From: a virus
Direction: 5' to 3' (one strand)
IMG/VR virus record: IMGVR_UViG_3300030109_005647
Location: 16,465 to 80,464 of that record
Length of the DNA: 64,000 bases
The number at the start of each line of letters is the position of its first letter. Within the stretch, counting starts at the first letter, position 1. The notes below the pieces were generated by a model. The model saw only the letters and a list, made by a program, of their open reading frames with translations, had not been told where the DNA came from and did not search any database. Of the stretch, positions 5,531-20,038 are shown piece by piece. The translations under genes were made by a program, and so were the position numbers.

Positions 5531-7393
5531 TTATGTAATCTCACAGGCGCCGCCTGCACAAGCCAGTTCGCCTTTGAGATCGGTATTGTCGGATACTTCA
5601 ACAACTTTGGACAAATCAATGTCCTCTAGTGTGTCTAGCAGTCTATTGTAGGTTACTTCGTCGCAGTCTTCAAAGGGTGCTTGCTTATAAGTTCCGCCGT
5701 CATGAGGAAGAACTGAAAGACCGTTATAAACGGCTCTGTTATCCCACATCCATTGACCTACAGGCTCCCACTCTTCTTCACGGATGGAAACAGTAGCTGA
5801 AACATTGTGAGTGTTTTGACCTTTTCCGTGTCCGTTCTTTACCCACTGTGTAGATACTTTCTTTACTCTCTCCAACATATCCATAGCGGTTTCGCCTCGT
5901 GTGATCGCACCTGCGGGTGCTTTCTGCGGAACAGAAATGACTGCGGTGTCATGTGGTCTGAAAAACTCGTCCTCGACCAAATCTGGGTGATAAACAGACA
6001 GGTAGTTGTAGATTGCCTCGTTTTTACCAACCCGTAGTCGACGAATGTAGTATTCATTGTGCCAAGCGTGGATACCAGAAGAAGTGCCAAGAGCTAGGCT
6101 TGTTGTTCCTGCTGGCTTTACACAAGTAGTCCGTGCTGCAGGTTTAATTCCTACGAGATTAGCGATTCTTTTATTTTCTTTCCTAACTTCTTTAGCTGCT
6201 TCTTTCATATCCAGTTTTAGGACGTTACCAGAGGCAATACCAGTCATAGAAACACCCACAAGAGCGTCTTTTTCGGTAGTTCTACGCCAAACATCACGAA
6301 GATAGTGAAAGTCGGTGTAGGTTGCCTGTAATGTGCCTATGAAAGACGCTGCACGAGAGCGAGCGTTGATTTCTTCTTGTGAGTCAACGTCAGAAGCGTT
6401 GATTTCCGTAAGATTACAGAACTGATAAGGTCTTAGGGCAATCTCACAACACGGATTAGTGCCCCAGTCTTTATCATTTGAGAAATAAAACCCTGGTTCA
6501 CCTGCTCCTGAAGCTTTTACACGAAACCAAAGGTCTTTAAAAAACTCTTCTGTGACCAAGTGACGCATAAGAACGATTGAGTTGTTTGCTCTACCACGTT
6601 GTGGGTTCTTTTCCCACCAATGTCCGCTTTTTGCGGAGATCATTTCATCATCACCAGCAGAGAATAGGGATATAAGCGCTGCTCGTCTAATGCCGCCAGC
6701 CAAAACTGCGTCAGCTATATAACAAACCATATCGTGAACTTCAATAGGAGTAAGTTTGTCGCCAACTTCCTTATTTGACAGAACGCCCTCTAGTTTGACT
6801 AAACACTCGCGGAGAGGTTGTGGTCCTGGGGCTCTACCTCCAGAGGTTACGAGACGAGCGCCTTTTGGTCTAATATCGCTGTAGTCAAAGCGAACTTTGG
6901 AGCCGCCAACAAAATAAGACTTCATTAGAACCTTTACAGCGTCTGCCCAACCTTCTATGGAATCACCGATAAGATGGCGTCTAGTGCGCTTTGTAGATGG
7001 GTGAACAATCTCGGGAAGCTCCCGTGTGTGATGAAATTGCACACTATAACCAACACCAGTGCCGCCGAGAAGTAAAAACATAACTTCATGAAACGAACGC
7101 CAATCATCAATAGGAACATAGGCGCAATTAAAGATGCGATTAGGGGCAACTTCAATGGGCTTGCCGCCAAACTGCATAGAACGCATAGAAGGAAGAACTT
7201 TTTTATCGTAAACATATTGATAAGCTGCCTCTATTTCTTCTTTCAACTCTGGAAATTTCTTAAGGTGCATTCCTTTATTTCTGTCTACTAACTCGGACCA
7301 TACTTCTCTTCTTTCTTTCTCGGGTAAATACTTTGCATACTTCATGTGGACAGTAATGTCCGACAGGGTTTTGTTAGCAATGTCTTGTGGCAT
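5531..7393 (-). CDS. nrdJ: class II (adenosylcobalamin-dependent) ribonucleoside-triphosphate reductase
   Basis: Reduces ribonucleotides to deoxyribonucleotides with a radical generated from coenzyme B12. Compared with the monomeric Lactobacillus leichmannii type, the redox pair is C90 (FNCAYVP) and C326 (QFCNLTE). The thiyl-radical cysteine and proton acceptor are C315 and E317 in NPCCEIALRP. The C-terminal shuttle pair is C612 and C617 in ACAGGACEIT, with the same five-residue offset as the reference enzyme. At 620 residues it is about 120 shorter than that enzyme. The PAGTTS loop (CVKPAGTTSLALG) is present. AAGGAG precedes the ATG. It lies between the helicase and the lipoprotein promoter and supplies dNTPs; no separate activase or small subunit is needed. 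Confidence 0.95.
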   Translation of the reverse strand: MPQDIANKTLSDITVHMKYAKYLPEKERREVWSELVDRNKGMHLKKFPELKEEIEAAYQYVYDKKVLPSMRSMQFGGKPIEVAPNRIFNCAYVPIDDWRSFHEVMFLLLGGTGVGYSVQFHHTRELPEIVHPSTKRTRRHLIGDSIEGWADAVKVLMKSYFVGGSKVRFDYSDIRPKGARLVTSGGRAPGPQPLRECLVKLEGVLSNKEVGDKLTPIEVHDMVCYIADAVLAGGIRRAALISLFSAGDDEMISAKSGHWWEKNPQRGRANNSIVLMRHLVTEEFFKDLWFRVKASGAGEPGFYFSNDKDWGTNPCCEIALRPYQFCNLTEINASDVDSQEEINARSRAASFIGTLQATYTDFHYLRDVWRRTTEKDALVGVSMTGIASGNVLKLDMKEAAKEVRKENKRIANLVGIKPAARTTCVKPAGTTSLALGTSSGIHAWHNEYYIRRLRVGKNEAIYNYLSVYHPDLVEDEFFRPHDTAVISVPQKAPAGAITRGETAMDMLERVKKVSTQWVKNGHGKGQNTHNVSATVSIREEEWEPVGQWMWDNRAVYNGLSVLPHDGGTYKQAPFEDCDEVTYNRLLDTLEDIDLSKVVEVSDNTDLKGELACAGGACEIT

Positions 7394-7403
7394 ATGTCTC
7401 TCC

Positions 7404-8762
7404 TTATTTGTTCATATTTCTAAAGACTTCTCGGGCTTTGGAGAACTCTTTTTGTTGTTGTTTTGCTAATTGTTGTTGTTGTAATTTTACAACGTCATCT
7501 CTTTCTAGAACTTTAATAGACACACTTGATGTATCCATAAACGCGGAAAACACAATTCCATCAGGACCATTTCTGTTTTTGGCGACAAAAATACGCGCAA
7601 TATTAGCATTTCTATCCTTGATAGTTCTGGATAGACTAATAATAAAATCTGCAACAAAGCACTTGTTAAATGCTTCCGAGATTGACTCCATTGTGATTAC
7701 TTCTTCGTTTAGACCCTTTCGGTTGGTTTGTGAGGCGGTTACTATAGGGCAACCAAACTCTTGTCCAAGTCCGCGTAGCTCTTCATAAATAGATTCTAAT
7801 TCATGTCTTTTCTCAGAATTTTTACGAACTATTGAACTTTTTAGCAAATCGCCGTAGTCAACAACGATCATATCGATTTCCATTTCTGTTTGTCTGATCT
7901 TTTCCAAATGGGTTTTAAGAGTTATAGTAGAAGCAGACTTAGTTGGAAACTCTTTTACAATAAGTTGCCCATCAATATCTTTGATTACGTCATAAACTTC
8001 ATCTTTTTGATTTATAAGCTCATCTAACGGAATCCCAGTAAGACAGGCATCATAACGTTGAGCAACGGACGTATCGGCAAGTTCTAGTGTAAAATGGACA
8101 ACATTTTTACCTTGTTTTAGGGCTTGTGCTCCAAGATGAACGAGAACGTGAGATTTTCCGGCTCCTGTTGGGGCAACTACAACTACAAGTTCGCCTTGAC
8201 CTAAACCGCCCTTTGTTATCTTGTCTATTTTTGTCCAGCCAGTTGTTACTGGATTGCGGGCTCGTTCGATAAACCGAGCCTCAAAATCTTTAATATAATC
8301 ATAGCCATGATCATTACTTATGCCTAAACGTAGGGCATCAGCTATTAATTTTTCTATTTCCTCAAACGAACATTTGTTCAGAAGCGGCACAGACTTCATC
8401 ATCGCCTTTTTAAGAACTTGTTTTCTGCAGAAGTCTACAGACTTTGATATTATATATTCTGTATCTTGTATCTCTGGAAAAGCCTGAACTTTTACAAAAT
8501 AGTCCATGACTTGTTTTTTAATTATTTCGTTTTCTTCTCCTAGTTCTGTATTTAGAACTGAGTTAAGTGTATCGTTTGTTGGGTGAATACCATATTCTTT
8601 TTTATAATTAAAAAGTTTGTCGGTAAAAACTTGAAGATATTTTAGCTCCAGATATTTAACATCTAATACTTCTTGCATCTGGTCGCAATACGATCGATCG
8701 TAAAGCATAAGCTTACACATATTTTCTTGGAAACTCTTTCCAAAAATTCCTAAACTGTCCAT
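7404..8762 (-). CDS. DnaB-type replicative DNA helicase (T4 gp41-like role)
   Basis: 452 residues. An N-terminal helical domain (to about residue 145) is followed by a RecA-like ATPase domain with Walker A APTGAGKS at 197-204, a Walker B strand MIVVDYGDLL near 300, and the DnaB motif VTASQTNRKG followed by ISEAFNKCFVADFIISLSR. It would unwind the replication fork 5'-3' and recruit the DnaG-type primase encoded at 53210-54136. The C-terminus is Gln/Lys-rich and probably disordered. It has its own sigma70-like promoter (8789-8817) and GAGG before the ATG, so it starts a transcript that continues into the ribonucleotide reductase gene. Confidence 0.92.
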   Translation of the reverse strand: MDSLGIFGKSFQENMCKLMLYDRSYCDQMQEVLDVKYLELKYLQVFTDKLFNYKKEYGIHPTNDTLNSVLNTELGEENEIIKKQVMDYFVKVQAFPEIQDTEYIISKSVDFCRKQVLKKAMMKSVPLLNKCSFEEIEKLIADALRLGISNDHGYDYIKDFEARFIERARNPVTTGWTKIDKITKGGLGQGELVVVVAPTGAGKSHVLVHLGAQALKQGKNVVHFTLELADTSVAQRYDACLTGIPLDELINQKDEVYDVIKDIDGQLIVKEFPTKSASTITLKTHLEKIRQTEMEIDMIVVDYGDLLKSSIVRKNSEKRHELESIYEELRGLGQEFGCPIVTASQTNRKGLNEEVITMESISEAFNKCFVADFIISLSRTIKDRNANIARIFVAKNRNGPDGIVFSAFMDTSSVSIKVLERDDVVKLQQQQLAKQQQKEFSKAREVFRNMNK

Positions 8763-9394: not shown

Positions 9395-9772
9395 TTAACT
9401 TTGACGACTGAACAGGCTTTTTACATAACTTGTCCATGCCCAAAACTTTCTTTCTTCTAGGTAGTCTGGGTCTAGGTCGTTTGCGTAAGCTTCCACCTCA
9501 AATGGGTTTCCGTAATACGCCGCTTTCCAACTTCCCTTTGTGAAACGACCAATAACATAAAATAAACCATACAATATCCATTGAAGGACAAACAACATTT
9601 CTAATTGTTGTAAGAAGTGGATAGTTTCATGAGTTATTGTTTTCTCGCTTAACTGTCCACGGCAAACAACAAATGGTCCAGCAGAAAACGCCCATACGTC
9701 AATAGGAGCAATCTTTGATAGCCAAGATGGTAGTTTGCTATTTTCAATAAAAATTGGTTTTAAGTTCTTCAT
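9395..9772 (-). CDS. zincin-like metallopeptidase with a hydrophobic segment
   Basis: 125 residues. HETIH at 48-52 is an HExxH zinc site, and E92 or E94 in NPFEVEAYAND is placed like the third ligand of gluzincins. Between them is a hydrophobic stretch FVLQWILYGLFYVIG that could be a membrane helix or a buried core helix. Small HExxH proteins of this size are common in phages but their substrates are mostly unknown. AAGGAA precedes the ATG, which overlaps the exonuclease stop as ATGA, so the two are co-translated. Confidence 0.6.
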   Translation of the reverse strand: MKNLKPIFIENSKLPSWLSKIAPIDVWAFSAGPFVVCRGQLSEKTITHETIHFLQQLEMLFVLQWILYGLFYVIGRFTKGSWKAAYYGNPFEVEAYANDLDPDYLEERKFWAWTSYVKSLFSRQS

Positions 9773-10743
9773 TTATTAAGTTCCTTTTTATCCCTTTGGA
9801 TTCTTGCGAAACTTTCAAACATAGCACTCCAACTGATCTCATTGATCCCATCCTCTAACATCATTTTATACGTTTGAGTTTTATTGAAGGTGTGTTCGAA
9901 GTTGTCAATAATCCATTCGATGCTCTGTTTAGTCTGCGCCGAAAGGCTTGGGCTATACAGTTGCATCAGGTTATAATTAGACTGAATAAGTGGTTTATTC
10001 TCTTTTATAGAGGTGAACGCTTTAGCATTACTTTCTTGATTTTCACAGAACTCTATCAAATCATTGACATAAACATCCTCTTCTTTTTCGAAGAAAGGGA
10101 AGCGTTTAGCAACTGTTTTCAGTCCAATACCGGGAACTCCATCTAGATTATCGGATTTATCTCCAACAATAGCACGAGCAAGGGCAAAATTGTTTGGATG
10201 TATGCCGTGCTCTTCTATTATACTATTTTGTGTTAAAAGCTTTTTCTGCACAGGGCGATATAAAATAGTATTTTGATCAAGCAACTGATAAAAATCTTTA
10301 TCGCTTGAGACAATTACCTTTTGATCGTCGCGGAAACAGCTATAACGACACAAGTAAGAGATAATATCATCTGCTTCAACTTCATCTGCGATTAGCTGCA
10401 TAACTGGGAAGTTATTTAAATACTCACAGATCCTTTCTTGTTGCCAGATTTTATTTTCTTTTTCTTGATCCTCAGTTAAAACCTTAAAGTTGCGGTTGAG
10501 ACGAATAGGTGCTCTACCTTCTTTATAGTTTTTATTTTGCTGCTTCCGCTTGCGACTGCCGCCGCGACCATCCCAACAAACAACCACCTGTGTAGGCTTC
10601 ATTTCTCGGCAAAGCTTTTGAAGAGATTTAAGAAAGCCAGTTGTTCCCCCAATGGGCTGACCTTCTTTAGAAAGCTGTGGAACTACAATGTAACTTCGTA
10701 GAAACATATTTAGTCCATCTATAATGATTACTCGCTCGCTCAT
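9769..10743 (-). CDS. 5'-3' exonuclease / flap endonuclease (T4 RNase H-like role)
   Basis: 324 residues. Family blocks appear in order: IIDGLNMFLRSY at the N-terminus (first metal Asp), VVVCWDGRGGSRKRK, ADEVEADDIISYL, VIVSSDKDFYQLL, and GDKSDNLDGVPGIGLKTV, the helix-hairpin-helix that binds DNA. These acidic clusters bind the two metal ions of PIN/FEN enzymes. It would remove RNA primers and 5' flaps from lagging strands. In bacteria this activity is the N-terminal domain of Pol I; here it is separate from the polymerase at 14511-15698. AAGGTA precedes the ATG. Confidence 0.92.
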   Translation of the reverse strand: MSERVIIIDGLNMFLRSYIVVPQLSKEGQPIGGTTGFLKSLQKLCREMKPTQVVVCWDGRGGSRKRKQQNKNYKEGRAPIRLNRNFKVLTEDQEKENKIWQQERICEYLNNFPVMQLIADEVEADDIISYLCRYSCFRDDQKVIVSSDKDFYQLLDQNTILYRPVQKKLLTQNSIIEEHGIHPNNFALARAIVGDKSDNLDGVPGIGLKTVAKRFPFFEKEEDVYVNDLIEFCENQESNAKAFTSIKENKPLIQSNYNLMQLYSPSLSAQTKQSIEWIIDNFEHTFNKTQTYKMMLEDGINEISWSAMFESFARIQRDKKELNK

Positions 10744-10751
10744 ATTCTACC

Positions 10752-11864
10752 TTACGCAGTTTCCTCGTAGAACTCAGTAGCATCACCAGTTCGTTTATCA
10801 AACTTGCGAACAACTTCTTCATCCATTATTTCAAGAACTCGTGCTTTAAATTTATCATCTTGAAGCTTGTCAATCCAACGTGCAGACTGAAACTTTTCGC
10901 TTGTGCCGTCTTCGAACTTAAGCTCATACCAAGCTCCGGCGCGATCTAAGTGTTCGGATCCTTGGATAGCATCAAACCAACTTTCTTCGTCAGCAACACC
11001 GACTTGATCACCCCAAAGGATTTGAAACTTACATTGTCGTCCTTGTGAACCAAAACGAGACTTCTCTAGCTTAACCTTGACAGTGTTGCCAATACGATAG
11101 CCTTTGTCGTCAGTTACAAAAGAAGCTTTTGCTTTTGGTCTAGTCAACCATACCCGCAATGAATAAGAATAAATCATTGCCTTGCCACCCGGTGTTACAT
11201 AAGGTGTAGTAAGTGTTTCCGATGGTGATCTAGTAATATTTGTCTTAAGCTGATTCAGCACTAGAAATGTCGATTGACTATTCGCGATAGGAACAGTTAA
11301 CTTAGACATACCCTTTGCTAAAATTCGTGCTTTTACAGCCATACTAGACTGTGGATTGAAGTCACCCTCAACATCAGAGATAGAAGGAGTAAGAGCCAAA
11401 CTATCCCAGATAAAAAGAAACTGACTATCTGTAGAAGAAAGTAGTTCCTCCATTGTCTCCAAAACAAACTCTACCGAGGTTGCTTGGACATATAAAATCT
11501 TTGATGGATCACACCCCGCTTTCTCTAAGAAGCTGAAGTCTAATGAAGACTCTGAATCAAAGTAAACAACATCAATGCCCATGTCTTGAGCGTTGCCTGC
11601 TATTTGTGCAGCCATATAAGACTTGCCACTTGCTTCTAGTCCAGCTATCTCTGAAACTTTGCCCACTGGAATACCAGCCAGCTTACCACGGCAGATAATA
11701 CTATCGAGCCATCTTGATCCAGTTGGAATCCATTGTTTTACCGTTGTTGGATTGTTTGGATCTGCTAGATCCACAGAAACTTCTTGTCCTGCTTTTTTAT
11801 TTATTAGTTTTCTCATCTGGTCCATCGATAGACGACCAGCGGATTTCTTTTTAGCCAATCTCAT
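10752..11864 (-). CDS. uvsX: UvsX/RecA-like recombinase
   Basis: Strand-exchange ATPase for recombination-dependent replication and repair. From the ATG at 11864 it is 370 residues, with Walker A GLEASGKS at 75-82, Walker B LFIWDSLAL, and a RecA loop 2-like region NQLKTNITRSPSET..TPGGKA. An upstream start at 11927 would add 21 residues; the ATG chosen has GAGGAGG three bases ahead and overlaps the upstream stop by 14 bases. The C-terminal part, with GVADEESWFDAIQ, resembles the C-terminal domain of phage UvsX proteins. It lies in the replication block with SSB, polymerase and exonuclease. Confidence 0.93.
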   Translation of the reverse strand: MRLAKKKSAGRLSMDQMRKLINKKAGQEVSVDLADPNNPTTVKQWIPTGSRWLDSIICRGKLAGIPVGKVSEIAGLEASGKSYMAAQIAGNAQDMGIDVVYFDSESSLDFSFLEKAGCDPSKILYVQATSVEFVLETMEELLSSTDSQFLFIWDSLALTPSISDVEGDFNPQSSMAVKARILAKGMSKLTVPIANSQSTFLVLNQLKTNITRSPSETLTTPYVTPGGKAMIYSYSLRVWLTRPKAKASFVTDDKGYRIGNTVKVKLEKSRFGSQGRQCKFQILWGDQVGVADEESWFDAIQGSEHLDRAGAWYELKFEDGTSEKFQSARWIDKLQDDKFKARVLEIMDEEVVRKFDKRTGDATEFYEETA

Positions 11865-12177
11865 GTTCCTCCTCTGTTTGATCACTTCTATCTGGTCTAA
11901 AGGCATATATAGGACCACGATAGCCACGTTTATCTATCTTCATAGAAACATTGTCTCCAAAGTCTCTGACCTCTAAAATATAATCTTTAGATCGTTGGAT
12001 TAGATTTGAAACATCGCTGTTATCAGACCAAAACCAAGCAAATCCTTCTCTAATATCTTGCTTTGAGGCATATGCCGAGGACTCACTATTTGGACCCCCA
12101 CCAAGACCTTTGTATCTGCTTGCTAGCTCCCGTAGAGCGTCCTCGAAACCATCGTCTCCTTTTTTCCATTTTTTCAC
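11851..12177 (-). CDS. small protein of unknown function upstream of uvsX
   Basis: 108 residues, starting at GTG with GGAG seven bases upstream. Features: a basic N-terminus (KKWKKGDDGF), a Gly/Ser linker, an aromatic EGFAWFWSD segment and an acidic EEEHE tail. It overlaps uvsX by 14 bases, so the products are made together. The position next to uvsX would suit a recombination mediator (UvsY role), but there is no sequence similarity that I can see to support that. Confidence 0.6.
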   Translation of the reverse strand: MKKWKKGDDGFEDALRELASRYKGLGGGPNSESSAYASKQDIREGFAWFWSDNSDVSNLIQRSKDYILEVRDFGDNVSMKIDKRGYRGPIYAFRPDRSDQTEEEHEIG

Positions 12178-12187
12178 AGTATTTCTC

Positions 12188-12475
12188 CTAAAAAATATAA
12201 GTTGATTGTGTTTTCTTTTCTTGTGTTTGTTTTTTTATCAACCCAAACTTGTCTTCCATATTTTCGTAATCGTCATAGAGATCGCTTGGTGTTGCTTTAA
12301 TGTTCATTTTTATTGTTTTATATTTGGTTTTTTTATCTGTGATTTCATATTTGAAGTGACCCATAAAGCCGCCGTAAACTCTGACACGACCGCACTCACA
12401 CTCTCTTAGGTCATCTGTTGCTCTTGAATAGACAGTTGTATTACACTCTTCGCAATGAATCGCTCTTACTAGCAA
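12188..12475 (-). CDS. small zinc-ribbon phage protein
   Basis: Read from TTG at 12475 (AAGGAAGGAC just upstream) the product is 95 residues. It begins with a four-cysteine knuckle: CEEC at the N-terminus, then CECG after the RATDDLRE segment, followed by VYGGFMGHFKYE. This pattern, C-x2-C...C-x-C followed by a GGF turn, is common in a family of short phage zinc-ribbon proteins (DUF7695-like in my memory). A longer frame back to 12529 runs into the terminator behind ssb and would not be translated from a good site. Function unknown; nucleic-acid binding is likely. Confidence 0.6.
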   Translation of the reverse strand: MLVRAIHCEECNTTVYSRATDDLRECECGRVRVYGGFMGHFKYEITDKKTKYKTIKMNIKATPSDLYDDYENMEDKFGLIKKQTQEKKTQSTYIF

Positions 12476-12502
12476 TTTTGTCCTTCCTTTCGTGATAAAA
12501 AT

Positions 12503-12525
12503 AAAAAAGGGGGGACAAGCCCCCC
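12503..12525 (-). terminator. intrinsic terminator after the SSB gene
   Basis: On the minus strand GGGGGG, loop CTTGT, CCCCCC, followed directly by TTTTTT. The 6-base all-G/C stem with a T-tract begins seven bases after the ssb stop codon. It would end or attenuate the ssb transcript before the zinc-ribbon and uvsX genes. Confidence 0.88.
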
Positions 12526-12531
12526 ACAAGA

Positions 12532-13275
12532 TTAGCTACCTAGTAGCTCAGAGAATGCCTTGTCGACATCCGAAACCGATCCAGCAGTGGATACTGCTGA
12601 TTGATTGGCGACTGTCTCGTCAACAGTGTTGAGGAAACGGTCAAGAATGTCTGTAACCTGTGTTGTGGTTCGACGAGCATCTGAAAAGACCTCATCAAAA
12701 TCAGGCACGGATTCCATGAGAGTTCGCGCTTGTGTCTCATCTTCGTGAAGAAGAGAAGACTTACGCCGAGGAGTAATCTTGGTCTCAGGGAAAGATGCCC
12801 CTGCTGGCTTTGAGTAGCCAATCACCAAGTCAGTTCCCTCTGACGGGTCTGTGATATCGCCATACTCTGGGTTAAGAACAAGACCAAGTAGAGTTTCATA
12901 AGCACGCTTACCAAATCCCCAAACCTTTACGCCTTCTTCCTCTTGTCCTCGGACAAGAACTGGAGCAAAGAAACGTTGCTTCGCACCTAGCTTACGTGCT
13001 ACACGCTTGGACTCTTCAGAGCCTTCACGCCATAGGGCACGCACATAGTCATCGAGTGGGCAGTCCTCACCAAAGTTACGCTTTGGCGAAAGAAATCCAG
13101 GCTCACCCGCTACGTCATAGTGAAACCAAAAGTCTCGGAAGGGGTCGCCGTCCGATGGAGCTACCAAACGAATAGTTTGTTCACCCTCTTGTGGTTTCCA
13201 AAAGTTGTTCTTCTTATTTCCGTTTCCTTGTAGCGCCTCTAGACGAGCACGCATCTTCTCCATATTAATTCCCAT
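12532..13275 (-). CDS. single-stranded DNA-binding protein (T4 gp32-like)
   Basis: 247 residues. The N-terminus is basic and helical (MEKMRARLEALQG), followed by a core with FWKPQEGEQTIRLVAPSDGDPFRDFWFHYDV and KRFFAPVLVRG-like strands (here KQRFFAPVLVR) and VWGFGKRAYETLLGL, the pattern of gp32-type OB folds in T4-like phages. The C-terminus is acidic, ending SDVDKAFSELLGS, as expected for the tail that contacts replication partners. It coats unwound DNA and assists UvsX and the polymerase. GGAG lies nine bases before the ATG and a strong terminator follows, which suits high expression. Confidence 0.85.
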   Translation of the reverse strand: MGINMEKMRARLEALQGNGNKKNNFWKPQEGEQTIRLVAPSDGDPFRDFWFHYDVAGEPGFLSPKRNFGEDCPLDDYVRALWREGSEESKRVARKLGAKQRFFAPVLVRGQEEEGVKVWGFGKRAYETLLGLVLNPEYGDITDPSEGTDLVIGYSKPAGASFPETKITPRRKSSLLHEDETQARTLMESVPDFDEVFSDARRTTTQVTDILDRFLNTVDETVANQSAVSTAGSVSDVDKAFSELLGS

Positions 13276-13314
13276 AATTATTTTCTCCTTAGTTAAAGTC
13301 AGTGCGTTGATCTT

Positions 13315-14163
13315 TCACACTGCTAGTTGTTGTATTAAAGTGCTGCTTTTTTCGCAGTAAGCTATAAGCTCATTATAATCAGTTGAGTGAACTGAGTAAG
13401 TAGTTTTCATTTTTTCGTGTTCTATATTTGATTTTAGGTTTCCACGAATAACCTCCATAAGATTAGGATCTTCTTCTAGTTGTTTTTTCGGAACTCCATA
13501 ATAATAACTTTTTTCTCTTGGAATGTCAAGCTCAAAAAACATATTTTCTTGATTATTTTCTGGATTGAGTAAGCCAAAGGTGGATACACGAGCAGTATCA
13601 ATACGCTTTGTTTGCGTGGTCATTACTGGTTGTGTATTTTGAAAAACATTTAACATGTGATATGTTGTTGCCACCAAGTTATTCATTGAGTCCCACAACT
13701 TCATTATTGGAACAGGACCCATTATACCAGATAATTTAGAATTGTCAACTAAAAAAACACGGTCTAGTAATCCTGATCGGGCATATTCTTGAAAGACGTT
13801 GAAAAGTAAGTTGTTTTGTAGAAGTTTTTCACCCGCAAGGTCGTCTCTCTGTGGGAGGATATACACTACTTGTATGTTTGTTTTCTTGTGTATCTTTTGT
13901 AAAATCTTCAGGGAAGCACCAGAAACAGCACCACAACTTGTGATAAATAAAGTTTCGGACATCACCCCCTCTAAGAAGTTATTAATACCTTTCGGTAGAT
14001 TATTTTTTTCATAAAGTTCGGGACTGTCCTGATGCTTAAGACCAAATGTTGTTTTGGTCTTTTTTAGACCTACATCTATTTTTTTTATTTGATATTGTGG
14101 GTATTGTGACAGATGATCTGCTATGTTGCAGCCTGCTTTACCCAAACCTATGACGGTTTGCAT
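13315..14163 (-). CDS. divergent tubulin/FtsZ-superfamily GTPase-like protein
   Basis: 282 residues. The N-terminus VIGLGKAGCNIADHL (4-18) matches the first nucleotide loop of FtsZ (GVGGAGCNAVDHM) almost residue for residue. FITSCGAVSGASLKILQKI (73-91) stands where FtsZ has the tubulin signature GGGTGTG. The following VVYILPQRDDLAGEKLLQN and FLVDNSKL blocks parallel the VTKPFxxEG and IPNDKL strands of FtsZ. KRIDTARVSTFG (186-197) resembles the catalytic T7 loop (NxDFADVxTV) but keeps only the first Asp. The glycines of the signature loop are thinned, so GTP hydrolysis may be altered or lost. It is shorter than FtsZ or PhuZ cores. AGAGG precedes the ATG. It lies between the SSB and polymerase genes, which suggests a role in DNA positioning or replication rather than virion structure. 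Confidence 0.6.
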   Translation of the reverse strand: MQTVIGLGKAGCNIADHLSQYPQYQIKKIDVGLKKTKTTFGLKHQDSPELYEKNNLPKGINNFLEGVMSETLFITSCGAVSGASLKILQKIHKKTNIQVVYILPQRDDLAGEKLLQNNLLFNVFQEYARSGLLDRVFLVDNSKLSGIMGPVPIMKLWDSMNNLVATTYHMLNVFQNTQPVMTTQTKRIDTARVSTFGLLNPENNQENMFFELDIPREKSYYYGVPKKQLEEDPNLMEVIRGNLKSNIEHEKMKTTYSVHSTDYNELIAYCEKSSTLIQQLAV

Positions 14164-14186
14164 TTATTCCTCTTTTAAGCTATTTT

Positions 14187-14501
14187 TTATTTATCAACAG
14201 GTAATGTTTCCTCTAGTTCTTTTAATTTTGTATCAAAGATATTCGGAATAGTTTCAGAAATGTTAAAGTAGCTAATGATATCTAAAAGTCTTTCAACATA
14301 AGGCAGTTCTCTATCGTTTATACGTTCCATACCAGACACCGCCATCGTTCTCATCCTTCTTTTTATTTCGTTTTTAGTTTTTATTTCGTCTCGACTTGGG
14401 TTTTCTTTGTCTTCGTCTGGCTTTGGATCTTGCTCGTTATTTGTTAGATTTTCTATTTCTTCTAAAATAATTTTTTTTAATTCTTTTTGTGTAAGCTGCA
14501 T
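14187..14501 (-). CDS. small protein with an LTxxxLKxxIxEE N-terminal motif
   Basis: 104 residues from the second of two close ATGs; GAGGG lies six bases before it, while the first ATG touches that site. The N-terminus MQLTQKELKKIILEEIENL is an amphipathic helix of a kind also seen at the start of two head-region proteins here (35587-36009 and 36011-36955). It is followed by an acidic, probably disordered linker (residues 20-40) and a helical domain. No enzyme motif. The shared N-terminus suggests that it is delivered to, or assembled with, the same partner. Confidence 0.6.
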   Translation of the reverse strand: MQLTQKELKKIILEEIENLTNNEQDPKPDEDKENPSRDEIKTKNEIKRRMRTMAVSGMERINDRELPYVERLLDIISYFNISETIPNIFDTKLKELEETLPVDK

Positions 14502-14510
14502 ATGCATCCC

Positions 14511-15698
14511 TCATTTGATGTGTAAAGGTTTCATACCTGACCAGTTTTTTCCACCTTCGTGGTTTATTTTAAACTTGCCAAACCTAGTATTACTAAATAG
14601 TTTAGAGATTTGGTTTATGTCATATTGATCTTCTTCTGCCAGATCAATAACTAAACTATCGTGGTTGCAGAACTTAACAAAAGACTTCTTGTCCTCAAGA
14701 AACTCCCAAACTTTATACATTTGCTCAAAAACTAGATCCGCTGCTGTGGATTGGATAATATAACTAATAGCATGATCCTCATCGGCATCAATCTCACGAC
14801 CGAACTGCGTGTAAACCTTACCCAAAACTTTATCAAAATACATATCTTTTAGGATTTTACGGTCGTAAATCTTATCAACCTTATCGTCGGTGCTGTTTGG
14901 GTTATAAAGCCAAGAAAAAATCCTTTTCTTTGCATTTTCTCTACTTTTAGTTCTGGTGAAAACATTCTTTAAGTTCCAGTCGTGCAAGTCCTCTTCGGGT
15001 TGGTCATGACCAAGAAGAGCAAGGGCAATGCGCAATTCACAAGCATTGAAATCCAACTCATAAAGCCAATCGTTAGTGGGGGTTAGGATCTGACGATATT
15101 TCTTTGGAAGCGTCATTACTGGAAATGAGTTTGTCTTAGTCGCCAAGCGACCTGTGACTGTTTTAAACATGTCATAATCAATATAAGGCTTACAGCCACT
15201 CACAGTCTTAAACATGTTTCGGTCTTGAACTGTAAGTCGTTCTATCTTTGTTGGATCGATATTGACCTTACGGTTTTTGATATCTGCGATAACTTTGTTA
15301 ATCTTGAGCAACTGATCGTAGTTTGTGGGTTTTGGATAGTTGGTAAAGATGTCTTCACAGATTTTATTTTTTATCTCTGCAAAGTTTTGCAAATAATGAC
15401 TTGGGATTAGGTCATATAAGCAATGATCGTCAAGAGTTAGACCTACTTCGTTTGCTGCTTTGAACGCTGCTTTGATTCTTGCTTGGACTGCGGACCACTC
15501 CCCTCTAGAACCTTCTGGGCAAAGCTCGTCCAGGGATTTACCCCCGGTGTAAAGATTAGCATACTCGACCTCCTTGTCGCGTAGATAAGTAGCATAAGAC
15601 CAAGTTTTGGTACAATTGTCTGTAATTTGTTCGCTAAATGTTCCTTTTCTATAGATTAGGGAACATTTATTTTTTTCGTCGAATGTCTGGAAAAGCAT
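14511..15698 (-). CDS. family A DNA polymerase core without an exonuclease domain
   Basis: 395 residues. Palm and fingers motifs are in order: TGRLATKTNSFP (182-193), motif A DFNACELR with the metal-binding Asp at 216, a finger-helix motif B RENAKKRIFSWLYNP (253-267), the IIQSTAADLVFEQM helix (314-327), and motif C NHDSLVID with H346-D347. The N-terminal 180 residues would be the thumb; no DxE 3'-5' exonuclease motif is visible. T4 relatives normally have a family B polymerase. RM378 is remembered to encode its family A polymerase and 3'-5' exonuclease as separate genes, and that may be so here with the exonuclease outside the window. The start overlaps nothing but follows the upstream stop directly, with GGATAC as the site. 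Confidence 0.9.
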   Translation of the reverse strand: MLFQTFDEKNKCSLIYRKGTFSEQITDNCTKTWSYATYLRDKEVEYANLYTGGKSLDELCPEGSRGEWSAVQARIKAAFKAANEVGLTLDDHCLYDLIPSHYLQNFAEIKNKICEDIFTNYPKPTNYDQLLKINKVIADIKNRKVNIDPTKIERLTVQDRNMFKTVSGCKPYIDYDMFKTVTGRLATKTNSFPVMTLPKKYRQILTPTNDWLYELDFNACELRIALALLGHDQPEEDLHDWNLKNVFTRTKSRENAKKRIFSWLYNPNSTDDKVDKIYDRKILKDMYFDKVLGKVYTQFGREIDADEDHAISYIIQSTAADLVFEQMYKVWEFLEDKKSFVKFCNHDSLVIDLAEEDQYDINQISKLFSNTRFGKFKINHEGGKNWSGMKPLHIK

Positions 15699-17027
15699 TT
15701 AGTATCCGCTGGTTGAGCCACCAGTTGTATTATCAAAAAATGAAGATGGGCTGGTGCCGTTAACTTGTTGCTGGGTTAATATACCAGTATTGGTAGGTGC
15801 TGTCAAGTAGTTTTTATTTTGGGCTCTCATTTGAGCTAAAAAATCAGATATCGCCACTGTGGTTTGAAATATATCTTTTGATTTTAAATTAGATAACATC
15901 CTTCTATATAATTTTATTTTATTTTTATTATTTAATTTTATGCCCTCTTCTATTAATCTTATATCCAAATATCTTTTTAAAAATTCTTTTTCAGGATATA
16001 TACTAAGAAATGTGTCATAGTCTATTTGATTGTTGTCTGGAAATTCATTTGGTCTAGCTCTTATTATTCTTTCTGTTTTAAACGTTGATTGTAAAAAATT
16101 GTCTTTAATACAATTTTTTTGTATTATCTTTTCTATTCTTGGTTGAAAATCAATAAAACCTACATATGACAGGTACATGTATTTTTTAAATGAAATATAA
16201 CTAATATACTCAGCTTGAAAATAACTTAAGTTAAAGTTTTGTACATCATTTCCTATACCGTAGGGAGCCATATATTTTTTAAGCTGTTTTGAATTCAAGT
16301 TTGCAACTATTGACCACGGTATGTGCTTGTTGACATAAAAACCATAAGACGCAGCAATTTTAATATAATCTGTAAAATAATCACTTGAAAGAAAATTATT
16401 CCATTTCGGGGCATCGCTACCATACTCACTATCATCAGAAAATTCAATAATTAATCCACTAGTTCTAGAACTACAGTTGACAGATGATAAATAACCTGCT
16501 AAGGTATAAGGAAAGACAGGATTGATAAGACAATATTGATAAAATTTGTCTGCATACTGCTTAAAGCTAGAGATAGTGTTTTTATCTTTTTTAGATAAAA
16601 ACATATTAATAAAATTTAGATCGATAGTTTGATTAAAATATTGATTATATTCACCTATTAAATCTTGATAAGCTTTTTTTGGATTTTCGATATCAATTAT
16701 TGTTGTCATACAAGTTCTAAAAGAGTCTCTGGCATTTAATATAAATTGAGTCATTTCATTGTAAGCATCAACAACAAAGTTAATAGCCAACAATTCTTCT
16801 TTATCTGTTAAATATTTCAAAGACGTTGGCTTTGGATATACATATCTTTGCTTTGTATCGACTTTTCCCCACAATGGTCGACCATACCAAAAATCAATCG
16901 GTCTGGATAATCCAGGAGAAACAGGGTAAATGTTTATGTTTCTTTGGTAATACTCTCTTTGGTTGAATAAGTAATCCGCTGGTAAATTATTTCTAGCAAA
17001 GGGTGCTATGTTTATATCTCTAGGCAT
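15699..17027 (-). CDS. probable virion protein of unknown function
   Basis: 442 residues, rich in Asn, Tyr and Ile, with no enzyme motif, signal peptide or coiled coil. The C-terminus is a Gly/Ser/Thr-rich tail (TSPSSFFDNTTGGSTSGY), typical of exposed virion protein ends. It lies at the downstream end of the tail block, after the 990-residue baseplate protein and directly before the polymerase gene, which points to a baseplate or tail-tip part. The ribosome site is weak. Confidence 0.5.
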   Translation of the reverse strand: MPRDINIAPFARNNLPADYLFNQREYYQRNINIYPVSPGLSRPIDFWYGRPLWGKVDTKQRYVYPKPTSLKYLTDKEELLAINFVVDAYNEMTQFILNARDSFRTCMTTIIDIENPKKAYQDLIGEYNQYFNQTIDLNFINMFLSKKDKNTISSFKQYADKFYQYCLINPVFPYTLAGYLSSVNCSSRTSGLIIEFSDDSEYGSDAPKWNNFLSSDYFTDYIKIAASYGFYVNKHIPWSIVANLNSKQLKKYMAPYGIGNDVQNFNLSYFQAEYISYISFKKYMYLSYVGFIDFQPRIEKIIQKNCIKDNFLQSTFKTERIIRARPNEFPDNNQIDYDTFLSIYPEKEFLKRYLDIRLIEEGIKLNNKNKIKLYRRMLSNLKSKDIFQTTVAISDFLAQMRAQNKNYLTAPTNTGILTQQQVNGTSPSSFFDNTTGGSTSGY

Positions 17028-17065
17028 AATATAAATAGAAATATTTTAAAATATTATTCTGGTTC

Positions 17066-20038
17066 TTACGGCTCTGCGGTTGTTCCTGCAGCATACTCAG
17101 GATATTGTTTTAATAAAGCTTCTTCTTTTTGTAATTTTTCTCTTAATTTTTGCTCTGCGAGCTTTTTATTCGCACCCTGCTTTCCTACGCCGGCGGTGCC
17201 GGCTGCTATTTGTGCGCGATACAACGCAACTTTTGAAGAATATACACCAGCTTGCTCATCTTTTGCTTTAAATTCTTGTATCAATCGATTAACTTCTCGC
17301 TCTTTGGCTTTTGAATCGCCCGCAGACATTGTTTGTGCCTTAGCCCTATTAACTTGTCTTTTTGTACTGTATTGTACCCCAGTTACCTTTGTTTCGAAAA
17401 AACCTCCGGCGCTATAATAGTGATCGACGCTTTTAACTTGATATTGTCCCTCTCCATAAAACCACCCATTTACTTTAGGATCTGTTGCTGTGTTTAATGT
17501 TGGAGTAATCACATTAAACCTCATCCCCAATTGAAATATAGGTAATCCAACAGTTGTCATTGAAACCTCAAAGATTAGGGGTATCATTTTCTTATCATAA
17601 TTAAGTTGCTCAAAAACAACTTTTTCAAGATCAGAATCTTTTATAGCCTCCAAGCCTATTTTCTTTAGAGCACCTCTATCAACGCCGCCAAAAGTAAAAG
17701 TTGGAACAAAATCTGAATCATCTACTATACTTTCTCCATCAGACTTTCTCTTGGCATATAAAATTAACCCGTGCTTTAAATCGGCATGAGCTTTTGTATT
17801 TTTAATTATTTTAAAATTAGGACTTTCACCTGTCAATGAAAAAGTAATATTCCCAAGCTGATAAGAGCCGTTAAAATCTGAAACGTTCAACAATCTCCCT
17901 TTGTTTATTCTCGCAACCGAAACAAGATTTATTAGTGATTGCATTATCTCAAATACTGACAATGAGTTTTTTGAAGTTCCATAAAGTTTTTTTGCGAGAA
18001 TGTATTTAAGATTTTTCAAAGAAATGGGCAAGTCATAAATGTCTCTGCTGATCGCCACTCTATCTTTACCTGCGAACAGTGTGATATCAGAAAAAATAAA
18101 CCTACTTCTTTTTATTGTATTCTCAGCGACTTGTGCGGCATTAGACGGGTAAACAGTATCAACAAAAGGTGTATTTCTTCGTATGTTGCTGTTTATATTA
18201 TTATATATTCTATTAAACACCAATCTAACTAAATCTCCGAACAAAATATAACGCACGGTATAAAAATTACTAAACTCTTTGACTATTTGCTCTATTGTGC
18301 CTCCTAAAACTTCTGATGTTTGAGTGGCTAACGATCTTTGTTTTTGTAGTTCATTTATTTGTTTATCTATTTCTGTAATCTGTTCGTCGACACTACCTTT
18401 TTGTTTATTTAACTGCTCGATATTTGCCGCTTTATTTCTTTCCTCGCTCGCAGAGCCTGTTTTCTTTGATTGTTGTTCTTTTATCTTACCTTGTAATAGT
18501 CTTGATTGTCGAGCTATACCCTCTTTTTTAGAGATTAGCTCCTCTATCTTATATGTGAAATTGCGAATCGCCGTGTTTTTAGCGGTTGTTTCTTGATCGG
18601 CTGTTACTGGTTTTTTTCTTGTTTTTTTTGACGCTGAGTTACCAGGATCTGACAATAAATCTTTTACTGTTCCACCGCTAGATAATATATTATTGTAGTA
18701 TTCTATTATGGATTTAGCATCGATGGTTATTTCTTTTATTACACCAGATTTTTGTATTTCAGCAGAAAAGAAAGTTTCTTCTAGTGCCTTAGATATTTGG
18801 TCCATCCTCAGATTATCAAACTTAGCCTCTGCTTTTTGCTTTTCATTATCGTAATCAGCAGTTGCTTTACCAATTAATGAATTTTTTGCGGCTTCAGCAG
18901 AATCTATAAATTTTTGTTTTTGCGCTCGTAGTTGCTCTTGAAGTGCTTTTTCTTTTCTAATAATCACTGAAGCTGCACTCTTTTCGTCTTCACCCACAGA
19001 TTCTGTGTTCGATGTGGTTATACGTCGCTGTACTTCCTCTCTATCAACACTTTGTTTTATTTGTTCATCAATTTCTGTTAAGAATTTTTTACCGTGTATT
19101 CCTTCTGCACTTCTAGCCTTGGCATAAGTTTCTGCCGCCTTTATAGCTATATCTCTCTGGGTTTTTGCGTCTTTAACGTTTCTTTCCAAAACAACTGCGG
19201 CTGAAGCTAAATCTAAATTCAAGATATCGAAAAGCTCTCTTGTGCCAAATAAACTTTCCTCTTGACCAAAATATTCAACATCAACAATTGTTTTTGAATT
19301 TTCTTCTAGGTTAAGATTTGTTTTTATTAAATTTAAACTCAACGAAAAAGCTAAAGCCTCAGAATTTAAAGCATACTTTTCATTTATTTCTTTATTTGAA
19401 GTTGAGTATGATATAGTTATTTTAGTAAACCACGGACTAACACCAGTTCTACCAGCCGCTCTAAACACCTGGGCATATGTCAAGCTTTCACCAAAAACCG
19501 CTTCTGAACCAGGTATTTTATCCGTAAATGTATTCAAGGAGTCAAATATGAGTTTCACTTTTACATAATATGTTTTACCGAATAATGGCTGTCCAGTGCC
19601 GTCCAATCTCATTTCCAACGTTTTTAACCCTACGTTGTTTGTAGTGTAATACCCTAAGCTACCCAGACCCTTTTGTATGTTGGCAGGACTAGTCAGAGGA
19701 ATTGATAATTGTAATCCTGGGTCTTTAGCGTTTACCAAAAATAAATCTATTTTTGGCACCATTTGGGCGTATTCGTTTGGAGTTAATAAGTTTATAAAAT
19801 TAGAGTTTTTTTCTACCTCTACTTGAATCATACTATTAACAGTTTTTAAAAAGTCTTTACTTATTTTTGGTACATTGGGGGCACCTGGACCCGATACATT
19901 AGTTGTTGTGTCTATTGCCTTTTCTGATAAAGGAATTTCAGAAAAGATATCCAAAAGCATCATTTGTGGATTATTTAAAACCTCTTTATCAAATGTTTTG
20001 CCGCTAGTATCGGTATTTTTTTGAATTGGATCTGTCAT
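17066..20038 (-). CDS. large baseplate protein, hub-like C-terminus with a central coiled coil
   Basis: 990 residues. The first 270 are beta-rich. Residues about 280-600 are dense in Lys, Glu, Gln and Ala with heptads (for example around KQKFIDSAEAAKNSLIGKA and INELQKQRSLATQ), a long coiled coil. Residues about 840-900 contain FQLGMRFNVITPTLN, then VNGWFYGEGQYQVKSVDHYYSAGGFFET, resembling the domain in gpD/gp27-type hub proteins in which a G-x-Y-x-V-x-x-V-x-H strand precedes a Gly-rich turn. The C-terminus is again helical. The next gene upstream is gp53/LysM-like, fitting a baseplate cluster. The coiled-coil insertion is unusual for a hub. Confidence 0.45.
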   Translation of the reverse strand: MTDPIQKNTDTSGKTFDKEVLNNPQMMLLDIFSEIPLSEKAIDTTTNVSGPGAPNVPKISKDFLKTVNSMIQVEVEKNSNFINLLTPNEYAQMVPKIDLFLVNAKDPGLQLSIPLTSPANIQKGLGSLGYYTTNNVGLKTLEMRLDGTGQPLFGKTYYVKVKLIFDSLNTFTDKIPGSEAVFGESLTYAQVFRAAGRTGVSPWFTKITISYSTSNKEINEKYALNSEALAFSLSLNLIKTNLNLEENSKTIVDVEYFGQEESLFGTRELFDILNLDLASAAVVLERNVKDAKTQRDIAIKAAETYAKARSAEGIHGKKFLTEIDEQIKQSVDREEVQRRITTSNTESVGEDEKSAASVIIRKEKALQEQLRAQKQKFIDSAEAAKNSLIGKATADYDNEKQKAEAKFDNLRMDQISKALEETFFSAEIQKSGVIKEITIDAKSIIEYYNNILSSGGTVKDLLSDPGNSASKKTRKKPVTADQETTAKNTAIRNFTYKIEELISKKEGIARQSRLLQGKIKEQQSKKTGSASEERNKAANIEQLNKQKGSVDEQITEIDKQINELQKQRSLATQTSEVLGGTIEQIVKEFSNFYTVRYILFGDLVRLVFNRIYNNINSNIRRNTPFVDTVYPSNAAQVAENTIKRSRFIFSDITLFAGKDRVAISRDIYDLPISLKNLKYILAKKLYGTSKNSLSVFEIMQSLINLVSVARINKGRLLNVSDFNGSYQLGNITFSLTGESPNFKIIKNTKAHADLKHGLILYAKRKSDGESIVDDSDFVPTFTFGGVDRGALKKIGLEAIKDSDLEKVVFEQLNYDKKMIPLIFEVSMTTVGLPIFQLGMRFNVITPTLNTATDPKVNGWFYGEGQYQVKSVDHYYSAGGFFETKVTGVQYSTKRQVNRAKAQTMSAGDSKAKEREVNRLIQEFKAKDEQAGVYSSKVALYRAQIAAGTAGVGKQGANKKLAEQKLREKLQKEEALLKQYPEYAAGTTAEP

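Follow-up and report, generated by a model that had tools for sequence, protein, structure and literature searches.

A divergent tubulin-fold protein encoded in the replication module of T4-like phages, possibly a non-cytoskeletal partner of the replication machinery

The window analysed here, a stretch of 64,000 nucleotides in all (positions 16,465 to 80,464 of IMG/VR virus record IMGVR_UViG_3300030109_005647, itself 138.6 kb or 138,595 bases long), carries on its minus strand a cluster of replication genes that includes the gene for a tubulin-fold protein of 282 aa (13315-14163), which we call TUB (Table 1). This gene is a single open reading frame of 282 codons with an ATG start, an AGAGG stopping 5 bases upstream of the ATG, and the plus strand of the same segment is packed with stops. 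A preliminary description of the DNA had placed a gene here without naming a strand; the frame matches it exactly, and all the motifs quoted there lie inside it. TUB is a real gene under purifying selection and more than a chance ORF, with dN/dS of 0.088-0.117 in 10/10 pairwise comparisons among close relatives of 84-94% amino acid identity. The same description had put it in the replication block of a T4-like phage, and this setting holds: genes for a gp32-like ssDNA-binding protein, a DNA polymerase of the DNA_pol_A type, a RecA/UvsX recombinase, an exonuclease, a DnaB-like helicase and a ribonucleotide reductase (RNR) lie on the same strand. Elsewhere in the window, a scan of 10 genes, 4 of them without a match, recognised the T4-type tail sheath (phrog_23, 3.5e-62), major head protein (phrog_138, 7.3e-71), portal (phrog_213, 4.8e-69) and terminase (phrog_2, 3.8e-50).

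Table 1 Features of the TUB locus (window coordinates; residue numbers and percentages refer to TUB and its 156-row family alignment)
Feature	Position	Strand	Evidence
TUB, tubulin-fold protein, 282 aa	13315..14163	-	ORF and translation, fold, family
T1 loop, residues 6-13, GLGKAGCN	14125..14148	-	G6 97%, G8 99%, G11 97% of 156 rows; aligns with FtsZ T1
Degenerate, shortened T4 loop, residues 75-84, TSCGAVSGAS	13912..13941	-	signature 0/260; 3-residue gap against FtsZ
Family hallmark at the end of H5, residues 121-131, FNVFQEYARSG	13771..13803	-	Q125 100%, R129 99%, S130 99% of 156 rows
N141, T6 asparagine	13741..13743	-	94% of 156 rows; aligns with 'PN' of FtsZ T6
Core helix H7, residues 153-175	13639..13707	-	model; N161 94%, H169 96%, M170 95%, N172 97%
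17-residue loop (176-192) in place of T7 and helix H8	13588..13638	-	no helix in model; no NxDxx[DE]
Small variable gene, 106 aa, between polA and TUB	14187..14507	-	tblastn match in 3/111 loci, two of them the window's own record or an identical one
Short PolA-type DNA polymerase, 395 aa, neighbour of TUB	14511..15698	-	PF00476 1.1e-10
gp32-like ssDNA-binding protein, downstream of TUB	12532..13275	-	PF08804 2.4e-13; phrog_1192 1.4e-22
Small zinc-ribbon-like gene, DUF7695	12188..12529	-	PF24749 5.6e-7
UvsX/RecA-like recombinase	10752..11927	-	phrog_97 4e-51
5'-3' exonuclease	9769..10743	-	PF02739 1.9e-29
DnaB-like replicative helicase	7404..8762	-	phrog_19 7.3e-72
Ribonucleotide reductase	5531..7393	-	phrog_367 9.3e-129

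The polymerase domain PF00476 was found in one frame of 394-435 aa in each of ten long records of TUB phages (10/10), and the PolB domain PF00136 in none of them (0/10; controls were positive in 5/14 genomes). The T4-type sliding clamp PF02916 gave no match in the 10 TUB records, nor any in the control. The PolA-type enzyme is accordingly the sole A- or B-type polymerase recognised in the ten records, and at that length a 3'-5' exonuclease domain would hardly fit; polymerase motif C, usually HDE, reads HDS in the window's PolA. Two genes directly upstream of polA (15699-17027, 442 aa, and 17066-20038, 990 aa) recur in many TUB loci; for the first of them, Pfam and PHROGs gave no hit at E ≤ 0.1.

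Judging from its predicted structure, TUB has the complete two-domain tubulin/FtsZ fold, as had been proposed from its sequence motifs. The AlphaFold2 model, computed from an alignment of 38 family members, is confident (mean pLDDT 94.1, pTM 0.92), and its elements read in tubulin order, S1-H1-S2 ... S4-H4-S5-H5-S6-H6-H7 followed by a C-terminal alpha/beta domain, so that the N-terminal GTPase-type domain, the core helix H7 and the C-terminal domain that define the superfamily are all present. FtsZ is the top Foldseek match in the PDB (E 2.3e-13, probability 1.00; 690 matches at E ≤ 0.001). VIA-align 2 places TUB closest to CetZ (3zid; Z 24.7, rmsd 3.0, 258 aligned residues, 17% identity), followed by TubZ (Z 23.4, rmsd 2.8, 273 aligned, 16% identity), Aquifex FtsZ (Z 22.9, rmsd 3.6, 270 aligned) and beta-tubulin (Z ~22); Z is at least 8 for all 730 aligned chains and 21.5-24.7 among the 50 entries listed. 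In both PDB comparisons all 50 rows listed are FtsZ, TubZ, CetZ or tubulin, and the VIA alignments run from residue 1 to 275-282. Identity to FtsZ in the structure comparisons is 10-14%. A structure search of BFVD returned 6 matches at E ≤ 0.001, the best being an 'FtsZ' of an uncultured Caudovirales phage (12% identity).

Within this fold the nucleotide-site loops have fared unequally across the family, for which we collected 260 full-length homologues (counting the record from which the window comes, and records entered twice with separate locus numbers) that were reduced for redundancy to 155 and, with the window protein P0001, gave 156 alignment rows. The N-terminal glycine-rich loop had been likened to FtsZ loop T1, rightly so: the two align in the profile comparison, and G6, G8 and G11 are kept in 97-99% of the rows, which is the sequence mark of the superfamily. 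D30 (96%) and, in the T3 region where FtsZ has 'PE', E49 (96%) and Y51 (97%) are likewise conserved. N141 and N161 stand at the T6 and H7 positions through which FtsZ and tubulin touch the guanine. The T4 signature GG.TG[STA]G, by contrast with FtsZ, occurs in 0/260 members, against 16/16 in an FtsZ control that is circular, since those FtsZ were chosen by GGGTGTG. In its place stand loops of the types TSCGAVSGAS (the window's group), GGGGKVSVAS and AGAGKISGGS; the loop is as long as that of the window TUB in 73/156 rows and one residue longer in 83/156. The GGGTGTG signature had been called degraded, which is correct as far as it goes, yet it is gone altogether, and in the window TUB the loop is also 3 residues shorter than that of FtsZ in the profile alignment.

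The loss at T7 is similarly wider than first described. The second T7 aspartate is indeed missing, and so are T7 and helix H8 themselves, their place being taken by a loop of 17 residues in 153/156 rows and of 16 in the other 3. The expression NxDxx[DE], sought over a wider stretch, matches 7 times among the 260 members, always in the hairpin after S7 and at T7 in 0/260 (FtsZ control 16/16). T1, T4, T6 and H7 are in FtsZ register; RIDTARVSTF, taken for T7 in the preliminary description, is not T7 but the end of the 17-residue loop together with strand S7. In the model, the place of FtsZ H9 is held by a short strand, and the window TUB ends 8 residues past the last strand, with no FtsZ-like C-terminal linker or conserved terminal peptide. 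Outside the nucleotide loops the most conserved stretch is QEYARS at the end of H5, joined by H169, M170 and N172 on H7 and by Q278 near the C-terminus. Taken as a whole, this pattern of conservation would fit the loss of the hydrolysis cycle combined with strong constraint on what may be a partner surface. The suggestion that the protein might be non-hydrolysing gains from these counts (T4 signature 0/260, T7 motif 0/260), and TUB is probably non-hydrolysing.

Comparison of profiles aligned the TUB family with 16 FtsZ over residues 3-184, with T1, T4, T6 and H7 in register (hhalign P 7.8e-5 in a single comparison, HH-suite probability 61%). Against 7 PhuZ, T1 alone aligned (17 columns, P 0.0016), although the same PhuZ profile aligned with FtsZ over 196 columns (P 7.2e-9). 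Together, these results make TUB a tubulin-superfamily homologue and yet a lineage of its own. The profile comparisons covered FtsZ and PhuZ; an archaeal plasmid gene annotated ftsZ (L401) was left out of them. That the lineage stands apart from PhuZ, as had been supposed, is borne out by the 17-column match and by a tblastn search with TUB (P0001) of 50,697 phage records, which found no relative at E ≤ 1; the same kind of search with phiKZ PhuZ found 179 phage records at E ≤ 1e-3. In IMG/VR, at least 595 stretches encode a TUB relative (595/599 of the matches listed). Among 84,980 bacterial and archaeal species genomes there was a single match, in a MAG of candidate division WOR-3 (locus L110, CP070664.1), where a polA-TUB-gp32-UvsX piece lies near runs of N. 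Because a phage gene set sits there in a scaffold with runs of N, this is probably a chimera with a phage contig in a public genome, and not a host gene.

Ten selected long TUB records measure 95,539-203,859 bases, 9/10 of them under 200 kb (completeness not given), so the TUB phages seen so far fall mostly below the usual jumbo limit. Each of these ten holds exactly one TUB. In the record of L336, the TUB match (G050:C1:147755-148591) contains one in-frame TAA. Annotation libraries largely pass over the family. The window TUB scores 13.7 bits against PF00091, whose gathering score is 33, and none of the ten records has a match above that cut-off (0/10), with matches at E ≤ 1 in 12/38 members (best 0.0019). 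The window protein has no match in PHROGs, where the 38 members show scattered weak ones, and none in NCBIfam, where 3/4 other members tried match weakly, including one to TIGR00065 FtsZ (E 0.29, L061). Two further matches were taken as chance: SirA, the best PDB match by phmmer and hmmsearch (E 0.8 and 0.014, over a short stretch), and PtuB, a PADLOC match over 30 residues (E 0.0012). Titles and abstract openings on phage and viral tubulins, tubulins of huge phages and the T4-like or marine context, screened in a collection with few subscription papers and no bioRxiv preprints, included PhuZ/TubZ papers and reviews and reported no family like TUB.

Across the 111 loci compared first, the order polA-TUB-gp32-UvsX-exonuclease-DnaB-RNR is the rule, with gaps at contig ends or where genes are inserted. 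TUB begins before the end of polA or no more than 30 nt after it in 89/112 loci (88/111 without an artefact), and gp32 begins within 120 nt of the end of TUB in 105/127 (105/123 without artefacts); the artefacts are negative distances, -1945 in one case for polA-TUB and -1119 to -1632 in four cases for TUB-gp32, and most likely reflect pieces in reverse orientation. Wider spacing separates polA from TUB in 23/112 loci (at most 1132 nt) and TUB from gp32 in 18/127, with L074 showing the largest distance, 3088 nt; in L003 and L074 the interval from TUB to gp32 contains other genes. Gaps of ~300-1130 nt between polA and TUB, with room for small genes, are seen in about one fifth of loci, such as the window, L007, L008, L022, L028, L036 and L103.

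Since these loci had been found through TUB, we also drew 160 loci by gp32 alone, in two sets that each took the best 80 of ~600 ranked by similarity to TUB-phage gp32 and are thus not random across phages. TUB was seen in 152/160 of these best-ranked loci, the other 8 having less than 700 bp upstream of gp32, and wherever at least 1 kb upstream was available it lay on the same strand in front of gp32 (133/133). In one of the eight (L388, 693 bp), another small gene stands directly upstream of gp32, so TUB is at least displaced. The 153 TUB frames of this sample have 123 distinct last-120-residue strings, meaning that it is not one phage counted repeatedly, though close relatives are included. 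Upstream of TUB, polA was present in 121/127 of the best-ranked loci (80 of ~600 per set) with at least 300 bp before TUB; of the six without it, four show just 314-580 bp, and L373 and L376 have another gene directly upstream (of 597 and 214 aa, each running off the contig). In the TUB-selected set, 8/117 loci lack polA, six of them showing 337-560 bp only; in L077/L153, a single contig with 5.4 kb before TUB, a 393-aa kinase-like gene (L077:4213-5394; PF00069 3e-7, just below cut-off) stands in polA's place. The tie of TUB to gp32 is therefore constant, and that to polA strong though not absolute, because another gene replaces polA in a few loci. Protein distances over 85 non-redundant loci correlate most closely for TUB and polA (r 0.879), ahead of polA-gp32 (0.845), gp32-UvsX (0.823), TUB-gp32 (0.808), polA-UvsX (0.753) and TUB-UvsX (0.699), a correlation that partly reflects similar rates and linkage.

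Sister phages run the same replication cluster with a different occupant in this position. Flavobacterium phage immuto (NC_055915) supplied the gp32 against which sister loci were ranked; in the best 80 of ~600, again not a random sample, TUB was found in 0/80, and an unrelated gene of ~130 aa precedes gp32 in 79/80, the exception showing 140 bp upstream; polA is in view in 77/80, with the small gene behind it. The same gene fills the polA-X-gp32 slot of immuto, where it is gp002, and of Microcystis phage Mel-JY01 (PP395634) and LR756508, and its family (NKLFCTF...LVHRKKESNTLYTIN) comprises L166-L245 (e.g. L187:5559-5948), L117, L118 and L119. Searched for in TUB loci, it gave a best E of 0.75 in the first set and nothing at E ≤ 1e-3 in the TUB-blind set. 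As TUB and the small gene never occur together, the slot holds one of two genes in the loci seen, a pattern suggestive of gene replacement that may simply reflect two clade-specific genes. Homology between the two products, tried by hhalign, is unsupported (P 0.44). The ~130-aa protein gives a confident model (pLDDT 93.1) with no PDB match at E ≤ 0.001, the best VIA Z being 6.6 and limited to about residues 1-65, and only weak Pfam and PHROG matches (best E 0.0013, below cut-off), none of them to RegA, which is likewise absent from the PDB matches listed.

The placement of the gene suggests the conversion of a cytoskeletal fold into a component of the machinery that copies DNA. On the reading that we tentatively favour, doubt slightly outweighing confidence, TUB is a tubulin-superfamily protein that became a fixed part of the replication machinery, serving the gp32-like SSB and/or the short PolA in a structural or accessory role. 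Such a protein would work without a polymerisation cycle driven by GTP hydrolysis, might still bind a guanine nucleotide since T1 and the asparagines of T6 and H7 persist, and, as a compact two-domain replisome accessory or adaptor, may engage SSB and/or PolA through the conserved surface marked by QEYARS. The stricter version, in which TUB is an obligatory non-cytoskeletal 'pseudo-tubulin' subunit of a minimal-PolA replisome that stands in for a replication accessory factor, is conceivable and rather doubtful. In favour of a replisome role are the confident fold, the loss of T4 and T7 in the 260 members, the gp32/polA context, the single TUB per record and the TUB-polA correlation. Operon neighbourhood and core status are, however, no proof that the proteins interact physically; in L373, L376 and L077/L153 a gene other than polA stands in front of TUB, genes intervene between TUB and gp32 (L003, L074), and the sister phages manage the same cluster without TUB (0/80 of the best 80 of ~600). 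The kept T1, T6 and H7 residues suggest, at the level of sequence, that nucleotide binding and perhaps assembly persist, and by analogy with tubulin-fold proteins of odd T4 loop such as PhuZ, TUB could still assemble: T4 loops in 7 PhuZ sequences include forms such as GGASGS, and PhuZ polymerises (PMC3678025). The polA exceptions slightly lowered our confidence in the replisome role to the level given above, lowered that in the obligatory subunit, and slightly raised that in the scaffold considered next.

TUB might instead be a static, non-hydrolysing scaffold, a filament, ring or lattice formed with or without GTP that organises replisomes or replicated DNA into a factory and, T7 being missing, does not turn over. 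We consider this unlikely, if by no means far-fetched: a complete fold including the C-terminal domain, the kept T1, T6 Asn and H7 Asn, and the core status of the gene in the replication module all suit it, while T4 and T7/H8, the very parts that meet at the longitudinal interface in canonical protofilaments, are lost, and the window TUB stops 8 residues after its last strand with no PhuZ-like C-terminal tail. The same losses make a dynamic filament of the PhuZ/TubZ type, which would position or segregate phage DNA, improbable, and a non-cytomotive adaptor is likelier. Phage tubulins of that kind do exist (179 records by the PhuZ query) and TUB resembles TubZ and FtsZ in fold (Z 23.4 and 22.9); against it, TUB lacks the catalytic T7 Asp where PhuZ has LD..D in 6/7 sequences and SD..D in the seventh, no iteron array lies near TUB within 12000-17100 of the window, where a tubC-like centromere would be expected if close by (one farther off is conceivable), and the small gene beside TUB is not conserved, so that no constant adaptor partner is seen. 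T4 and T7/H8 together form the GTPase site at the interface between subunits of canonical protofilaments. For the T7 aspartate this is described in PMC3678025.

Slightly less probable again is that TUB acts as a decoy, co-assembling with or capping host FtsZ and thereby blocking division. Phage-encoded FtsZ inhibitors are known and FtsZ is the best Foldseek match, but identity to FtsZ is just 10-14%, T4 and T7/H8, through which it would contact FtsZ, are remodelled, and the gene lies in the replication operon, before gp32 in 133/133 blind loci (best 80 of ~600 each), and not among variable host-takeover genes. Both functions offered by the preliminary description, positioning of replicating DNA and interference with host FtsZ, find no support and are the less likely ones, the context (those 133 loci, with polA in 121/127, best 80 of ~600 each) pointing to a fixed part of the replication module. 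We give still less credence to the idea that TUB regulates the replication operon, having displaced the unrelated ~130-aa gene that the sister phages have in this position. In T4, the gene after polymerase gene 43 is regA, a translational repressor, and in the phages studied here X of polA-X-gp32 is either TUB or the small gene (79/80 sister loci, best 80 of ~600) and never both; in Pfam and PHROGs, nevertheless, the small gene does not match RegA, its predicted fold has no clear counterpart in the PDB, it is not detectably homologous to TUB, and equal position does not show equal function. Finally, an ordinary Rossmann-type dehydrogenase or the like, hinted at by weak similarity of residues 1-60 to chains of alcohol dehydrogenase (E ~1) and by TrkA_N in 5/38 members (best 0.0053), is refuted at the level of the confident model and deserves next to no credence, as 50/50 rows listed in both PDB comparisons are FtsZ, TubZ, CetZ or tubulin and the plain Rossmann fold raised as an alternative at the outset did not appear.

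The phage and plasmid tubulins that have been studied well form cytomotive filaments, by which DNA or particles are transported or put in place (PMC3678025, PMC7824862). Here, the same fold belongs to a core gene of a replication module and both elements of the GTPase cycle are gone. Should TUB work in the replisome, the tubulin fold would have a function outside the cytoskeleton; we know of no other member of the tubulin superfamily that takes part directly in DNA synthesis, and TUB would be the first. These phages would then own a core replication protein that annotation libraries have missed (for the window protein, no PHROG, no NCBIfam and a score below the Pfam cut-off), and an obligatory replisome subunit of this kind would be spread through a large phage group known only from environmental sequence.

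Among known systems, archaeal CetZ is nearest to TUB by structure, the sole basis of that comparison, and differs in its length (342 aa in the solved chain against 282) and in that TUB is a phage gene in a replication operon without the canonical T4 signature and the T7 catalytic motif. TubZ of plasmid and phage partition, also compared by structure only, shares the two-domain fold, whereas TUB has no T7, and no constant adaptor gene or iteron array was seen beside it (the latter in 12000-17100). FtsZ shares the fold and an alignable T1-T6-H7 core, and has GGGTGTG, the T7 NxDxxD, helices H8 and H9, and a C-terminal linker and tail that are absent from TUB. PhuZ of jumbo phages is, like TUB, a phage-encoded tubulin-fold protein of ~300 aa, but it keeps the T7 D..D that TUB lost, the two profiles match at T1 only, and its C-terminal tail has no equivalent in the window TUB; in phiKZ the annotated DNA polymerase is ~7.7 kb from the PhuZ locus with other genes between, whereas TUB adjoins replication genes. 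For jumbo phages, PMC7824862 describes two distinct FtsZ/tubulin representatives and a correlation with the multi-subunit RNA polymerase. FtsZl1 and FtsZl2 are diverged tubulin-superfamily lineages as TUB is, but are bacterial and archaeal genes that keep GGGTG(S/T)G, which TUB lacks; Makarova and Koonin 2010 (PMC2875224) consider a novel mode of filament formation possible for FtsZl1, or else no filaments. In gene order the closest counterparts are immuto and Mel-JY01, which share polA-X-gp32-UvsX-exo-DnaB with the TUB phages and differ in X, an unrelated ~130-aa protein in the former and TUB in the latter.
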